Source: a bacterium
GTDB taxonomy: Bacteria > Sysuimicrobiota > Sysuimicrobiia > Sysuimicrobiales > Segetimicrobiaceae
Length of the DNA stretch: 32,288 nt
Assembly: GCA_035703895.1 (NCBI GenBank)
Contig: DASSXJ010000011.1
Coordinates: 1-32,288, forward strand
Direction of reading: 5' to 3'
Below are positions 3,286 through 9,323 of this stretch, piece after piece. Each line of letters starts with the position of its first letter. Positions within the stretch are counted from its first letter, which is position 1. The notes below the pieces were generated by a model, which did not search any database, had not been told where the DNA came from, and was given only the letters and a program-made list of their open reading frames with translations. The translations under genes and the position numbers were made by a program.

Positions 3286-4728
3286 TCAGACGTCGTAGTA
3301 CAAGAAGAACTCGTACGGGACCGGCCGGATGTTGACCTCATGCAGCTCCTTCGTGCGTTTGTAGTCGAGCCAGGTGTCGAGCAGGTCACGGGTGAACACG
3401 TCGCCCTCCAGCAGGAACTCGTGGTCGGCCTCGAGGGCGGCGAGCGCGGCACCGAGAGACCCGGGGACGCTCTTGATCTTGGCGGCTTCTTCCGGCGCCA
3501 GCTCGTACGTGTTCTTGTCGAGCGGGCCGAACCCGGCCTTGACCGGATCGATCTTGCGCTTGATGCCGTCCAACCCGGCCATCAGCATCGCGGCGAAGGC
3601 CAGATACGGGTTGCAGGTCGCGTCGGGACACCGGAACTCGACTCGCTTGCTCGCCGCCGCGGCGGGGCCAGAGAAGTACATGGGAATCCGGACTGCGGCG
3701 CTCCGGTTCCGCTGGCTGAATGCGATGTTGACCGGCGCCTCGTAGTGGGGGACCAGCCGCCGGTACGAGTTCGTGGTGCACGCGCACAGCCCCAGGAGCG
3801 CGTCGACATGGGTGAGCAGCCCGCCGATGTAATAGAGCGCGTCCTGGCTGAGCTCGGCGTATCCGCCCTCGCGGTAGAAGACGTTCTGGCCGCCCTTCCA
3901 GAGGCTGATGTGGGTGTGCATGCCGGTGCCGTTGTCGCCGAAGAGGGGCTTCGGCATGAACGTCGCCGTCAGCCCGTGGCGCCGCGCGACGTTCTTGACG
4001 ATGTATTTGTAGCTGAGCAGGCTGTCCGCCATCCGGGTGAGGGTGTTGTACTTCATGTCGATCTCGCCCTGCCCGGCGTGCCCCACCTCATGGTGCTGCA
4101 TCTCCACCTCGATGCCCCAATTCTCCATCTCCAGGACCATCTCGCTTCGGAGATCGAGGTGGATGTCGGCCGGCGGCACGGGGAAGTAGCCTTCCTTCAC
4201 GCGCATGCGGTTCCCCAAGCCCGGCTGCCCGCTGTTCCAGGTCGCCTCCTGCGAATCGATGCTGTAGCCCATCCGGTGCGGCAGGACCTCGTACTGCACG
4301 TTGCTGAACACGAAGAACTCGGCCTCGGGCCCGAAGTACGATGTATCGGCCACGCCGGATGTCTTAAGATATTCCTCGGCCTTCTGAGCCACGTGGCGCG
4401 GGTCCCGCGTGTAGGGCTTCTGCGCGATCGGGTCGTTCACGTTGCAGATGACGGACAGGGTCGGGATCGTGCAGAAGGGATCCGGCCGCGCCGTCGCCGG
4501 GTCGGGCATCAGGAGCATGTCGCTCTCCTGGATCGCCTGGAAGCCGCGGATGCTGCTCCCGTCGAACCCGATCCCCCGGATGAACGTCTTTTCGTCCACC
4601 TGGCTGGCTGGGAGGGTTGCATGCTGCCAGGTTCCCGGCACGTCGACAAATTTCAGGTCCACCATCTTGACGCCGTGTTCCTTGATATATGCTACGATCT
4701 CGCGCGCCGTCATCTCCTTGCCTGCCAT
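3286..4728 (-). CDS. glnA: Glutamine synthetase, type I
   Basis: Makes glutamine from glutamate, ammonia and ATP in a cytoplasmic dodecamer. The 480-residue protein has the GS-I signatures in order: GFDGSSIRGFQAIQESDM near the N-terminus, the ATP-site stretch MPKPLFGDNGTGMHTHISLW, the NRSAAVRIP loop, and EFRCPDATCNPYLAFAA. KNTYELAPEE near residue 408 matches the region holding the adenylylated Tyr of the enterobacterial enzyme (KNLYDLPPEE), so modification control is possible though not shown. The open frame continues to 4872, but a strong promoter at 4855-4883 puts that ATG outside the transcript; ATG 4728 has GGAGG at good spacing (GGAGGTGGAGGA-ATG). It is monocistronic, with its own promoter, structured leader and terminator, and directs fixed nitrogen to glutamine, which nadE next door also uses. 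Confidence 0.96.
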   Translation of the reverse strand: MAGKEMTAREIVAYIKEHGVKMVDLKFVDVPGTWQHATLPASQVDEKTFIRGIGFDGSSIRGFQAIQESDMLLMPDPATARPDPFCTIPTLSVICNVNDPIAQKPYTRDPRHVAQKAEEYLKTSGVADTSYFGPEAEFFVFSNVQYEVLPHRMGYSIDSQEATWNSGQPGLGNRMRVKEGYFPVPPADIHLDLRSEMVLEMENWGIEVEMQHHEVGHAGQGEIDMKYNTLTRMADSLLSYKYIVKNVARRHGLTATFMPKPLFGDNGTGMHTHISLWKGGQNVFYREGGYAELSQDALYYIGGLLTHVDALLGLCACTTNSYRRLVPHYEAPVNIAFSQRNRSAAVRIPMYFSGPAAAASKRVEFRCPDATCNPYLAFAAMLMAGLDGIKRKIDPVKAGFGPLDKNTYELAPEEAAKIKSVPGSLGAALAALEADHEFLLEGDVFTRDLLDTWLDYKRTKELHEVNIRPVPYEFFLYYDV

Positions 4729-4848
4729 TCCTCCACCTCCGCGTCCCGCCGGGGACAGAGTTGCCCGGTTAAAGGCACACAAAAAGCCCCCCGTGGCGCG
4801 CGCCGCGCCCCGAGAGGCATCTCGGCCTTTCGGAACTGCTGTAGACTC
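4729..4848 (-). promoter_or_regulatory. Structured 5' leader of glnA
   Basis: The predicted transcript start near 4848 leaves ~120 nt before ATG 4728. Minus-strand hairpins in it are CCGAGA-TGCC-TCTCGG (4810-4825), GGCGCG-GCG-CGCGCC (4795-4809) and GTCCC-CGGC-GGGAC (4743-4756) just before the ribosome site. A T5 tract (4781-4785) follows a G6 run. It does not match the glnA/Downstream-peptide glutamine riboswitch consensus that I know. It may be an attenuator or RNA-binding-protein target; function unproven. Confidence 0.4.
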
Positions 4849-4932: not shown

Positions 4933-5298
4933 TCAGCGACGCCTTGGGCGAGGCCTCCCCACCGCGGGCTGTTTCGGCGGGAGCGTCGAGACGAAGGCGA
5001 TGCCCCGCTGCACCCATTTCGCGAGCGCCGCATCGGTGCGGTAGCCTGCGCGGTCGACGTACACAAAGCCGGCCAGGGGACGGCCGGCGAATTCCATCGG
5101 CCGCGCGTGCGGCAGTGCCAGCGCCCGCTTGTACGCGTCGGGTCCGACGCGAACCATAAAGGCAATGCTGGTGAGGCCGCAGCACATCCTGCCGTTCACC
5201 ATGAAGGACAGCCCGCCCACCATCTTCTTCTCGACGACGTCCCGCCGCCGGGAGAGGATCCGCCGCACACGTGCGGCGGTCTTCTCGTCGTAGCCCAT
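4933..5298 (-). CDS. TfoX N-terminal domain family protein
   Basis: A 121-residue protein matching the stand-alone TfoX_N fold: helix with RVRRILSR, then EKKMVGGLSFMVNGRMCCGL and MVRVGPDAYKRALALPHARPM, then GRPLAGFVYVD. In gamma-proteobacteria this domain is part of the competence regulator TfoX/Sxy, but isolated domains of this size are widespread and their role is unknown. No DNA-binding motif is evident. The last ~15 residues are Pro/Arg-rich. It begins 28 nt after the DinB stop, so the two are probably one transcript; ATG 5298 has no good ribosome site, which fits reinitiation. It ends just before the glnA promoter. Confidence 0.82.
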   Translation of the reverse strand: MGYDEKTAARVRRILSRRRDVVEKKMVGGLSFMVNGRMCCGLTSIAFMVRVGPDAYKRALALPHARPMEFAGRPLAGFVYVDRAGYRTDAALAKWVQRGIAFVSTLPPKQPAVGRPRPRRR

Positions 5299-5326
5299 GA
5301 CGGGTCAGGCGCCCCGGCGGGGACGA

Positions 5327-5800
5327 TTAGCCGAACAGCCTGGGCTTGCCGAGCAGCGCACGCAGGGACGTCATCTTCCCGATGTGATACCACCGGTGGG
5401 CATTGGAGAAGGCAAACGCCCCCGCCACATTGTTCCAAAACCCGCGCGGCCCTTCGTTTGGCGCATCCAAATTGGCCTCCGCGACCACGCGCATCAAGGC
5501 CTCGTGGGTGTCGTCGAAGGCTTGCACCACCTCGGTGAGCGGCGGGTAGTCTGCCGCGCCGCCGGTCCCGGTTTTAAAGAGGACGGGGTAACGCTCGGGC
5601 AGGGTGGTGGCTGAGGTCACGCCTACTCGCTTGACAAAGTTCGAGTTGGCGACGGCCAGATGCCCGACCTGCCATATGATCGGGGAGAGCATCGTGTTCG
5701 GCATCCGGCGCGCCTCTTCCTCTGAGATCTCGCTCAGTATCAGCTTGACGACCTGGTGTGAGCCGCCGAGCGAATGCTGGATCAGGTCCCGATTCTCCAC
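5327..5800 (-). CDS. DinB-family (putative metal-dependent) protein
   Basis: A 157-residue four-helix-bundle protein of the DinB/YfiT type. Helix 1 starts LIQHSLGGSHQVVKLIL; IIWQVGHLAVANSNF holds the first metal-type His, and the last helix, AHRWYHIGKMTSLRALLGKP, holds the other two (NAHxxxH-like). Members include thiol transferases and many uncharacterised proteins; a substrate cannot be assigned. GTG 5800 is chosen because AAGGAGG lies 8 nt upstream and the domain starts there; the longer frame to 6028 reads antisense to the ANTAR gene's basic tail. It follows that gene by 55 nt. Confidence 0.82.
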   Translation of the reverse strand: MENRDLIQHSLGGSHQVVKLILSEISEEEARRMPNTMLSPIIWQVGHLAVANSNFVKRVGVTSATTLPERYPVLFKTGTGGAADYPPLTEVVQAFDDTHEALMRVVAEANLDAPNEGPRGFWNNVAGAFAFSNAHRWYHIGKMTSLRALLGKPRLFG

Positions 5801-5855
5801 AACGACCGCCTCCTTGGGTTCTCTTACAGCAATACCGAACGCGCTGTACCGTGTG

Positions 5856-7634
5856 CTACCGGGATTTCCGCCCGCGCATGCGGGCGACAGGCCGCCGGCG
5901 TCGCTGGACCGTCCGGGGCGAGCGCCGCGCCCGTGTCGACGCGCCCTTGGCCGCCCGCGTCGAGCGCGTCCGTGTCCCCTTTTTCGCCGCTCGCGCCGCG
6001 CGCGCGCGCGCCGGCGGGCGCGCGCCATCCCCGCGTGCCTGCACGGCGCCGCCCACGGGCACGAGTTCGTACCGGGCGGTGGGGGCCGGCGTCGAGGATC
6101 CCCTGACGGTGCCCGGGAAGATCCGGAATACCGGGCAGAGGATCACCTCGATCCTCCCGCCGCCGGGCGCGAACAACGCCGGGAGGTAGAGCGTGCGCAG
6201 ACCCACGATCGTGATCGCGCCCGACGGGGGCGTCGACAACCACCGGCGGGTCATCTCGTACGCGGGGGTCCCGGGAATGGTGACCGCGGTGATGCGGGTG
6301 CGGCCGGCGGCGTCCCCAAATGCGAAGAGGAACGGTCGGCCCTCCACGAACCGGCTTCGCCCTCCGTAGAATCGTCCGGTCATGTACACGTAGGCGGTCT
6401 CGAGCGGGGGGACGTCGCGAAACGTCATGACCGTCCCCGTGACCGCCATCTTCGTTCGCGGCTGCGCGTCCGCGAAGGGCATCCGGTGGACGCTCTCGAT
6501 CTCGGCCCACTCCTCGCCTCCGGGCGCATCGAGCGGGATCGGGGGGAACGTGAGCCCCCGTTCCGTGGTGACGCTCCGAACCGGGTGCACCTCCAGGAGA
6601 TGCGGGATGATGGGGTGCCTGGCCGATGCGTGATCGGGGAGCAGGCGAAGCTGACCGGTGACCGTGACCCGCTGCTGGGTGGTGATCACCTCATCCAGGA
6701 GATGTGAGTACACGCTGTGACCGGTCCCCCCGGCGGCGAGCGCCCCGGGACGGAGTGCATTCTGAATGATGCATCCTACGGCCATCTCGCCCTCGCCCAC
6801 GGCGGGCGCGGGTGCGATGCCGAAGGCGATCCCCAATCCATACTCTCCGTCCTGCGTCCTGCCCGTGACATATCCCTCGAGGGTCACGTCGTAGCCGGGG
6901 GGTGGGGGGAGGTATGCCAGAGGGTCGGCGCCCGAGATCGAGAGGTCCGGGGCCCCGGGCGCGCCGATGAATACCCGGGCGGCGCACAGTACCCGTAGCA
7001 GATCCGCCGGCGTGCGGGCGTCGATCCGCCCGGCCGAGGGAGGGGCGGAGTGTTGGCGGAGCTCATCCGAGACCAGGATCGCCTTGGCGATCTCGCGCAT
7101 CGGCGTCCTCGTGTTGCGGCTCTGCCGCTGGATCCGGAGAAACGCTTCCGGCTCATCGACCCCTTCGCGCTTCATCAAAATGCCTTTGGCCCGCTCCACC
7201 AGCTTCCGGGTCTCCAAGGTCTCCTTGAGGGTGCCGACCTCATGCTGGAGCGCGCGGAGCTCCTGGAACCGGGCCATCGCGACCTCGATCACCGGGATGA
7301 GCTCAGCCTCCCGCACGGGCTTGACGAGATACGCCAGAACCCCGGACTCCTGGGCGCGCTGAACGAGATCGCGCTCGCTCCACGCCGTCAGCAGGATGAT
7401 CGGTTTCGGCGTTCGGGCCATGATCGTGGACGCCGCGGCGATGCCGTCGAGCCCCGGCATCTTGATGTCCATGAAGATCAGATCGGGAGAGGTCTTCCCC
7501 GCCAAGGTCACCGCCTGTTCGCCGTCCGATGCCTCACCGACCACCTTGTAGCCGTGCTCCTCGAGCATCGTGCGAAGACCCATCCGGATCACGGGCTCGT
7601 CGTCGGCGATCAGAATGCGCATCGCGTCGGCCAC
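5856..7634 (-). CDS. ANTAR-type response regulator with large unknown C-terminal region
   Basis: A 592-residue protein. Residues 5-120 are a receiver domain: acidic Asp11/Asp12, phospho-acceptor Asp56 (DLIFMDIKMPG), Thr83 and Lys105 (LVKPV). Residues ~130-190 are an ANTAR RNA-binding domain (LVERAKGILMKREGVDEPEA, then SRN). Typical ANTAR regulators end here at ~190-200 residues. This one continues with ~320 residues I do not recognise; they contain repeated beta-strand-like segments around VTG (GYVTGRT, VTVTGQLRL, MAVTGTVMTF, YMTGRFYG) and HPIIPHLLEVHPV, vaguely OB-fold-like. The final ~62 residues (531-592) are Arg/Ala/Lys-rich, likely disordered and nucleic-acid-binding. GTG 7634 is chosen for GGGGAG upstream; ATG 7622 is the alternative. 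It follows the kinase by 3 nt and should be its partner, acting by RNA binding or antitermination (family knowledge). Confidence 0.85.
   Translation of the reverse strand: MADAMRILIADDEPVIRMGLRTMLEEHGYKVVGEASDGEQAVTLAGKTSPDLIFMDIKMPGLDGIAAASTIMARTPKPIILLTAWSERDLVQRAQESGVLAYLVKPVREAELIPVIEVAMARFQELRALQHEVGTLKETLETRKLVERAKGILMKREGVDEPEAFLRIQRQSRNTRTPMREIAKAILVSDELRQHSAPPSAGRIDARTPADLLRVLCAARVFIGAPGAPDLSISGADPLAYLPPPPGYDVTLEGYVTGRTQDGEYGLGIAFGIAPAPAVGEGEMAVGCIIQNALRPGALAAGGTGHSVYSHLLDEVITTQQRVTVTGQLRLLPDHASARHPIIPHLLEVHPVRSVTTERGLTFPPIPLDAPGGEEWAEIESVHRMPFADAQPRTKMAVTGTVMTFRDVPPLETAYVYMTGRFYGGRSRFVEGRPFLFAFGDAAGRTRITAVTIPGTPAYEMTRRWLSTPPSGAITIVGLRTLYLPALFAPGGGRIEVILCPVFRIFPGTVRGSSTPAPTARYELVPVGGAVQARGDGARPPARARAARAAKKGTRTRSTRAAKGASTRARRSPRTVQRRRRPVARMRGRKSR
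5997..6011. repeat. Alternating CG run
   Basis: Fifteen bases of alternating C and G, in a wider GC-only stretch (5992-6027), inside the segment encoding the Ala/Arg tail of the ANTAR protein. Such runs are prone to slippage, so tail length may vary between strains or assemblies. Confidence 0.7.
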
Positions 7635-7637
7635 GGT

Positions 7638-9323
7638 TCAGCTCCCCTGAGGGCGCGGCATCGTGATCACCGCCCGGACCCCACGGACGTTGGTGAGCGA
7701 CAGCTGACCCTTGAGGTCATCCTGCACCAGGGTCCGGACGATCTGCAGGCCGAGATCGGCGGAGCGCCCCGGCGAGAAGCCCTCCGGCAGCCCGATGCCG
7801 TCGTCTCGCACCTCGACCCGGATGGCCTCCCGCCCTTCGCTCAAGGTGATCACCACCCGCCCCGCCGATCGTCCGGGAAAGGCGTGCTCCATGGCGTTTT
7901 GCAGCAGTTCGTTGACCACGAGGGCCAGCGAGGTGGCCTGCTGGCTCGGCAGGCTGAAGTCGTCGCCCTCGATCCGCGCATCGAGCGCAAAGTGTGGAGG
8001 CGCCATCGTCTGGGTCACCGTCTGGACGACGCGCTCGAGCATCGCCCGGATCGCGACCTGACGCAGCCCTTCCGCCGCGAGAATCTCGTGCACCGCGGCG
8101 ATACTGAGGATCCTGTTGATCGTCTCGGTGAGCACCTCGCGGCCCGATACTTCCCGGCCGTCCCGGATCTGGAGCCGCAAGAGCATCGCGATCATCTGAA
8201 GGTTGTTCTTGACGCGGTGGTGCATCTCGCGGACCATCGCGGATTTGACCACGAGCCCGGCATTTTCAATGGCGAGCGCGGTCTGGTTCGCCAGCGTCTG
8301 GAGGAGGTTCGTCTCCGCCTGGGTGAATTCGTGGCGCCGGTCGGTGTAGCAGTTCACCACGCCGAGGGTGCGGTCCCGGACCCTGAGGGGGACGGCCAGC
8401 ATCGAGCGGACGTGGGGAGTGTAGGCGCCTCCCGGAAGCTCGTGCGCGTGAAACCGGGGATCGGCCGCGAGATCGGTGCTCATGACCGGTTGGCCCGATT
8501 CGACGGCAAGGCCGGGCAGGCCCTCACCCTGCCGCAGAGTCTGGCGCGGGCGGGGCCCGGCGTGCTCGGGATGGGAGGCGGCCAGCACGAGTTCCTCACC
8601 GTCCTGCAGCAGCAGGGTACACAGCGGCGCGTGGAACACACGGGCCGCCATCTCTACCAGAAGGCGCAGGATCTGCTCCAGGTAGAGCGGCGACGTGAGC
8701 GTCTCGCTGACCTCCGCCAGCGTGCTCAACTCCATGATCTGACGCCGCATGCTGTCGTAGAGCCGAGCTTTCTCCAGCGCTCCGCTCGCCATGTCGCTGA
8801 TGATGCTGAGGAGCTCAACCTCGTCCTCGGTGTATTCATGCGTGCCCGTGGTTTGCACGTTGATAGCGCCGAGGATCTTCCCGCCGGTCGACAGAGGGAC
8901 GGCCAGCAATGACTGGAAGAGCGTTTCACGAGTCTCCGGCAAATATTTGAACCGGGGATCCGCGGCGGCGTTGGTCGACGCGACCGCTTGGCCGTGCTCG
9001 GCCGCCCATCCAGTCAGCCCCTCCCCCACCCGCAGCCGGGAGTGGCCGACGGCTTCTGGGGCCAGCCCGGTGGTGGCTTTGAGGACGAGGTATTCCCGCT
9101 GCGCGTCGAGGAGATAGATGGAGCAACTGTCCATCCGCATGACGTCCGCGGTCCTGCGGGTGATTAAGGTGAGCGTGGTATCCAGGTCGGTGGCGGCGCT
9201 GATCGCCCGGCTGATCTCGCGTAGGGCGGAGATCTCGGCGGCTTTCCGGGCCAGCTGCTCGCGCGCGTCCGGCGTCGGGGCCGGGGGCGAGGGTGGTGCG
9301 GGTGTCCGCGGCCCTCTCTTCAC
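7638..9323 (-). CDS. GAF-GAF sensor histidine kinase, HisKA_2 type
   Basis: A 561-residue soluble kinase. Two GAF domains (about 35-190 and 200-360) each have the REGEGL-type loop (RVGEGLTGWAAEHG; RQGEGLPGLAVESG) and the end motif (LGAINVQ; LGVVNCY). The dimerisation/phosphoacceptor helix is of the HisKA_2/HWE type, MHHRVKNNLQMIAMLL, with the phosphorylated His at 368 or 369. The ATPase domain has NELLQNAMEHAF, DDGIGLPEG and LGLQIVRTLV. There are no membrane segments, so the signal is cytoplasmic or diffusible; the ligand is unknown. GTG 9323 overlaps the hppA TGA in a GTGA, indicating translational coupling; the frame upstream of it reads inside hppA and is not real. The ANTAR regulator follows by 3 nt. 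HisKA_2 kinases commonly pair with ANTAR regulators (EutW/EutV is the known example). Confidence 0.93.
   Translation of the reverse strand: MKRGPRTPAPPSPPAPTPDAREQLARKAAEISALREISRAISAATDLDTTLTLITRRTADVMRMDSCSIYLLDAQREYLVLKATTGLAPEAVGHSRLRVGEGLTGWAAEHGQAVASTNAAADPRFKYLPETRETLFQSLLAVPLSTGGKILGAINVQTTGTHEYTEDEVELLSIISDMASGALEKARLYDSMRRQIMELSTLAEVSETLTSPLYLEQILRLLVEMAARVFHAPLCTLLLQDGEELVLAASHPEHAGPRPRQTLRQGEGLPGLAVESGQPVMSTDLAADPRFHAHELPGGAYTPHVRSMLAVPLRVRDRTLGVVNCYTDRRHEFTQAETNLLQTLANQTALAIENAGLVVKSAMVREMHHRVKNNLQMIAMLLRLQIRDGREVSGREVLTETINRILSIAAVHEILAAEGLRQVAIRAMLERVVQTVTQTMAPPHFALDARIEGDDFSLPSQQATSLALVVNELLQNAMEHAFPGRSAGRVVITLSEGREAIRVEVRDDGIGLPEGFSPGRSADLGLQIVRTLVQDDLKGQLSLTNVRGVRAVITMPRPQGS

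Follow-up and report, generated by a model that had tools for sequence, protein, structure and literature searches.

Response regulators of the ANTAR type, one of the outputs by which two-component systems bind RNA, usually end with the ANTAR domain itself. The one considered here continues for some 400 residues beyond that point. Its gene lies in a stretch of 32,288 nucleotides, here called the window, on contig C11 (DASSXJ010000011.1) of a 4.4 Mb genome, 97% complete, from the family Segetimicrobiaceae of the phylum Sysuimicrobiota; named relatives are Centralia soil metagenome-assembled genomes and 'Terrabacteria group bacterium ANGP1', whose current name is Candidatus Segetimicrobium genomatis. 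The product joins a receiver, an ANTAR domain, a region resembling oligonucleotide/oligosaccharide-binding (OB) domains and a basic tail (Table 1), and the reading towards which we incline is that of a EutV-like antiterminator of nitrogen genes, carrying a family-specific and presumably nucleic-acid-binding extension.

Distribution of the C-terminal extension

The canonical part of the protein is complete by residue ~190, as the original prediction, made from the sequence alone, had read it. The phospho-acceptor Asp56 stands within the motif FMDIKMPG and the acidic pair of the receiver is also present; the ANTAR match spans positions 3-54 of the 54 of PF03861, and the Ala/Ser and Phe positions of this domain are invariant across the family alignment. 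The frame then runs on for about 405 residues, close to the ~400 first estimated, for which searches in Pfam, NCBIfam, PHROGs and PDB sequences gave no match above cut-off; they include a core of 323 residues, corresponding to the ~320 that the same prediction had been unable to assign and equally without a database match.

The architecture was then sought in related genomes, the family being represented by 12 genomes of uncultured soil bacteria in four genera. The extension is encoded in all 12; the nine complete copies read through from the receiver to the tail without interruption, the remaining three ending at contig edges, and no copy has a stop near residue 200. The C-terminal part shares 62-69% identity with the window copy among family members. 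The ratio of nonsynonymous to synonymous substitution rates (dN/dS) of the 323-residue core is 0.05-0.18, with changes chiefly at third codon positions, a pattern that indicates strong purifying selection on the extension.

Outside the family the extension was not found in 374 genomes searched at E <= 0.001, among them 31 others of the phylum; neither these genomes nor protein and alignment scans of GTDB contigs gave a stand-alone homologue. Two other explanations were rejected: a frameshift or assembly fusion by the identical frame across the 12 family genomes, and an arrangement as two separate genes by the lack of any separately encoded homologue among the 374. The expectation that proteins of this kind stop after ANTAR was borne out in the sister families, where 18 orthologues end 3-16 residues past the domain. 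As far as searched, the extension is confined to one family; because all family genomes encode it and the sister orthologues end after ANTAR, a single gain, in the common ancestor of Segetimicrobiaceae, is probable.

Table 1. Features of the fused regulator locus in the window (coordinates in window positions).
Feature	Position	Strand	Basis
Glutamine synthetase gene, glnA	3286..4728	minus	downstream of leader; orthologues in 12/12 family genomes
Intrinsic terminator, stem 4786-4818, T run 4781-4785	4781..4818	minus	13 pairs
Leader hairpin P2, AGGC-CGAGAT-GCCT, hexaloop G at position 4	4815..4828	minus	paired in 12/12 sequences
Leader hairpin P1 position, stem degenerate in window genome	4832..4848	minus	GGTAC-NNNGNN-GTACC in most other members of the family
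glnA promoter-like sequence, TTGACT - 17 - TATAAA	4855..4883	minus	read from sequence; conserved in family alignment
Fused regulator of 592 aa, joining receiver, ANTAR, OB-like region and basic tail	5856..7634	minus	open frame, GTG start
Basic tail rich in Arg/Lys/Ala/Pro, 63 aa	5859..6047	minus	composition kept, sequence not conserved
Family-specific C-terminal region, 323 aa	6048..7016	minus	67-76% identity in 10 other genomes; dN/dS as in text
C-terminal domain 2, rich in beta strands, pattern resembling OB, fold unassigned	6099..6500	minus	70-84% identity to first row of alignment
C-terminal domain 1, probable OB fold	6543..6920	minus	AlphaFold2 strand order, Foldseek, hidden Markov model matches
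ANTAR domain, residues 136-187	7074..7229	minus	Pfam PF03861, E 1.7e-21
Receiver domain, residues 7-116, phospho-acceptor Asp56	7287..7616	minus	Pfam PF00072, E 2.9e-28
Sensor kinase, conserved part: two GAF, HisKA_2, HATPase_c	7638..9260	minus	Pfam; directly upstream of regulator

Fold and composition of the extension

The first ~125 residues of the extension form domain 1. An AlphaFold2 model of the whole extension is poor, with a predicted local distance difference test score (pLDDT) of 38; within it domain 1 has the order strand-strand-strand-helix-strand-strand, and the same order is obtained when this domain is modelled alone, with pLDDT 61.5. Nearly all top Foldseek matches of domain 1 in the PDB are OB domains, namely those of aspartyl-tRNA synthetase (AspRS), engineered OBodies, SSB, RPA and Cdc13, with a best E of 9.4e-3 and a probability up to 1.00. 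Sequence comparison points the same way: in two genomes of the family, positions 45-117 of a family profile weakly match the DnaE OB domain, with E 9e-4 and 1.6e-3, the domain 1 profile finds the N-terminal OB domain of archaeal MCM (PDB 4ywm) with E 0.008 over 64 residues, and one family member gives a tRNA_anti_2 match with E 0.2. A further weak match, on L045, was dropped, as it concerned a beta-rich, secreted-looking protein without OB evidence.

These lines are weak singly and convergent; because sequence and structure matches agree together, none being decisive by itself, an OB fold is probable for domain 1. Its modelled strand order, with the helix before the fourth strand, fits the five-stranded OB barrel and resembles that of the AspRS anticodon-binding, SSB, DnaE and MCM N-terminal OB domains, which include its best structural and profile matches; it differs from OB families in being fused behind ANTAR and in a sequence too distant for any Pfam OB family. 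The second nucleic-acid-binding module originally proposed is thus plausible for the first half of the extension and unproven for the second, and the AlphaFold check gave domain 1 a strand order that fits an OB fold, at low confidence, and a poor model of the region as a whole.

Domain 2 has a strand and helix pattern that resembles that of domain 1 when judged by eye, and a second OB fold in this place is our guess. Its part of the whole-extension model has a pLDDT of ~25-30, its profile found no meaningful match in the PDB, and an internal duplication relating the two domains found no support, profile comparison giving no detectable relation between them. Gly, Pro and aromatic residues are numerous among the invariant positions of domain 2, which would suit another possible, if less probable, reading, namely that the extension is a protein-protein module: OB folds serve as protein-binding domains too, and here their partner could be RNA polymerase, a Nus factor or some other regulator, the tail making weak charge contacts and ANTAR alone recognising the RNA. 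The leader described below, unchanged in families without the extension, would fit this arrangement as well; against it stands the tail, since a basic segment of 51-69 residues, its composition kept in nearly every copy, speaks for contact with a polyanion.

The tail was correctly described beforehand as rich in Arg, Ala and Lys. The last 63 residues of the window protein contain 24 Lys or Arg, one Asp or Glu and no aromatics; base shuffles of the tail gave 13.2 +/- 3.2 Lys or Arg, reaching 24 or more in 0.1% of cases. Complete tails in the family hold 17-27 Lys or Arg and 0-4 Asp or Glu, with a dN/dS of about 0.24-0.86, much freer than the core; in these alignments the tail preserves its composition, not its sequence. 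Similar low-complexity Arg/Lys/Ala/Pro segments are found in bacterial nucleoid proteins of the histone H1-like and HupB type. This resemblance, with the presence of SSB among the fold matches, could favour a nucleoid or DNA regulator, which once phosphorylated would engage DNA by means of its OB region and histone-like tail. The likeness is one of composition; the protein has no HU fold, and its tail is joined to a response regulator. A role in the nucleoid, which the original prediction had also entertained, is very improbable and found no support, the surroundings of the gene pointing rather to control of nitrogen genes, chiefly the linked glnA, by antitermination of the ANTAR type.

The glnA leader and its surroundings

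In all 12 family genomes a TTGAC-type promoter, the P1 position, hairpin P2 and an overlapping terminator precede glnA. The family consensus of P2 is RGGC-CNNGAY-GCCY, and its 3' arm doubles as the 5' arm of the terminator, whose stem is paired in 98% of alignment cells, five pairs having changed on both sides among 12 sequences. The hexaloop retains its G at position 4; at position 1 the family has C in P2 and T or C in intact P1, some sister P1 loops being of the form A..G. The P2 unit also stands before glnA in 12 of the 18 sister-family loci read.

P1 cells are paired in 80% of cases overall, the stem being broken in the window and in three other genomes of its genus. P1 has decayed in most of this genus (window 4832-4848, minus strand; L076, L077 and L078), with P2 and the terminator retained. 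P1 was dropped as a good hairpin of the window, where its stem does not form, and a tie between a strong P1 stem and the extension was rejected, since P1 is equally strong-stemmed in a family that lacks the extension (G015, L110).

A covariance model built from the family leaders was run on 43 genomes. It matches immediately upstream of each of the two remaining ANTAR genes in the source genome, at 8228-8291 of contig C277 on the plus strand (4229-4292 in L156) and at 20740-20808 of contig C228 on the minus strand, which suggests autoregulation or cross-regulation. In relatives, matches at L159 2730-2804, L161 4117-4192, L162 3071-3147 and L158 6191-6265 lie upstream of amt (two genomes), of an APC-type permease and of a class I aminotransferase, these names having been read off the translations without a family search; a nitrogen regulon spanning the phylum Sysuimicrobiota is likely.

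Comparison with Rfam gave no meaningful match for the glnA leader; let-7 and other microRNA matches on L119 fell in the leader and terminator region, below the gathering score, and were set aside. When folded thermodynamically, the whole 211-nt leader did not stand out from its shuffles (z -0.12), and the argument for it comes from comparing genomes, not from folding. By that comparison the glnA leader is an ANTAR-type attenuator, widespread in Sysuimicrobiota and absent from Rfam.

The glnA leader has the attenuator design described for the targets of EutV, NasR and AmiR, and ANTAR targets with hexaloop and terminator are known, often at nitrogen genes, glutamine synthetase leaders among them (PMC3369931, PMC3369936, PMC8934654). 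As in the ANTAR-target leaders of Ramesh 2012 (PMC3369931), the glnA leader has a hexanucleotide loop with G at position 4 and a P2 exclusive with the terminator, and the nitrogen-gene setting, including glutamine synthetase, is common to both (PMC3369936). The locus resembles EutV/ANTAR systems in this hexaloop hairpin overlapping an intrinsic terminator, and the protein resembles their regulators (PF00072 and PF03861) in its receiver, its ANTAR domain and a neighbouring HisKA_2 kinase. In EutV, however, ANTAR is the C-terminal domain, at residues 141-186 (PMC8934654), whereas the window protein runs ~400 residues past it; the P2 loop of the window begins with C, not A. With respect to the described leaders, the present type is found in Sysuimicrobiota, has C or T at position 1 in the P2 and intact P1 of the family, shows a degenerate P1 in the window genus and lacks an Rfam match.

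The conserved order of genes around the regulator in the family is hppA, sensor kinase, regulator, none to several variable genes and glnA, followed by nadE in most genomes where that stretch was read. The HisKA_2 domain of the kinase is matched with E 1.3e-18, and the adjacency of kinase and regulator is kept within the family and among sister families alike; because the kinase stop and the regulator start are only three bases apart, the arrangement suggests one operon. Linkage of glnA to the regulator is seen in every family locus whose contig extends that far. Between them the window carries small DinB-like and TfoX-N-like genes (4933-5860, minus strand), in a stretch that is variable among relatives.

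A candidate mechanism for the fused regulator

In the proposed mechanism, the GAF/HisKA_2 kinase encoded upstream would phosphorylate Asp56, as the gene pairing suggests, and the ANTAR domains of the phosphorylated dimer would bind hexaloop hairpins of the nascent leader RNA. With P2 held, the overlapping terminator would be excluded, and glnA and other nitrogen genes would be transcribed. In the Segetimicrobiaceae the protein was extended past ANTAR by what would be one OB-fold module, probably two, followed by a disordered basic tail; our guess is that the extension most likely adds another hold, of lower specificity, on the nascent single-stranded RNA, which may raise affinity or tether the regulator near the transcription complex. 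A bolder version, rather unlikely in our view, would make the protein a persistent RNA-tethered antitermination factor, whose tandem OB domains and tail stay on emerging single-stranded RNA or on the polymerase after ANTAR docking, as opposed to a hairpin clamp.

Several observations weigh against an antiterminator with a nucleic-acid-binding extension. At a strict cut-off no OB match is significant singly, both models are of low confidence, and the MCM_OB profile (PF17207) leaves the extension unmatched in the 12 family genomes at E <= 10, on which ground membership of that Pfam family was rejected. The absence of a singly significant match, the two weak models and the unmatched domain 2 would be expected if the extension were instead a module that senses a ligand or oligomerises and so adjusts the switch, perhaps by binding a small nitrogen metabolite, its OB likeness being generic to small beta barrels; this is distinctly unlikely, since the weak sequence and structure matches converge on one fold and an Arg/Lys tail would be unusual for a ligand sensor. 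On the RNA side, the family hexaloop has C or T where A is usual, and P1 is unformed in the window leader. Moreover, the source genome has three ANTAR genes, the fused regulator included, the other two encoding proteins that end soon past ANTAR, and any of the three may act on the glnA leader. Finally, the leader also occurs in sister families whose regulators are without the extension; therefore the extension is unnecessary for the basic mechanism and would modify a working system.

The new kind of regulator announced by the original prediction is too strong a description; because the surroundings indicate ANTAR-type antitermination of nitrogen genes, the antiterminator preferred here is better seen as a variant of the ANTAR response regulators. 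Its distribution gives it a wider interest: a fusion found throughout a clade, to a further module that probably binds nucleic acid, and beside a recognisable target leader, offers a natural test of whether ANTAR antitermination can reach beyond the hairpin clamp, and the leaders point to attenuation of the ANTAR type at nitrogen genes of an uncultured phylum, the loop consensus being altered.
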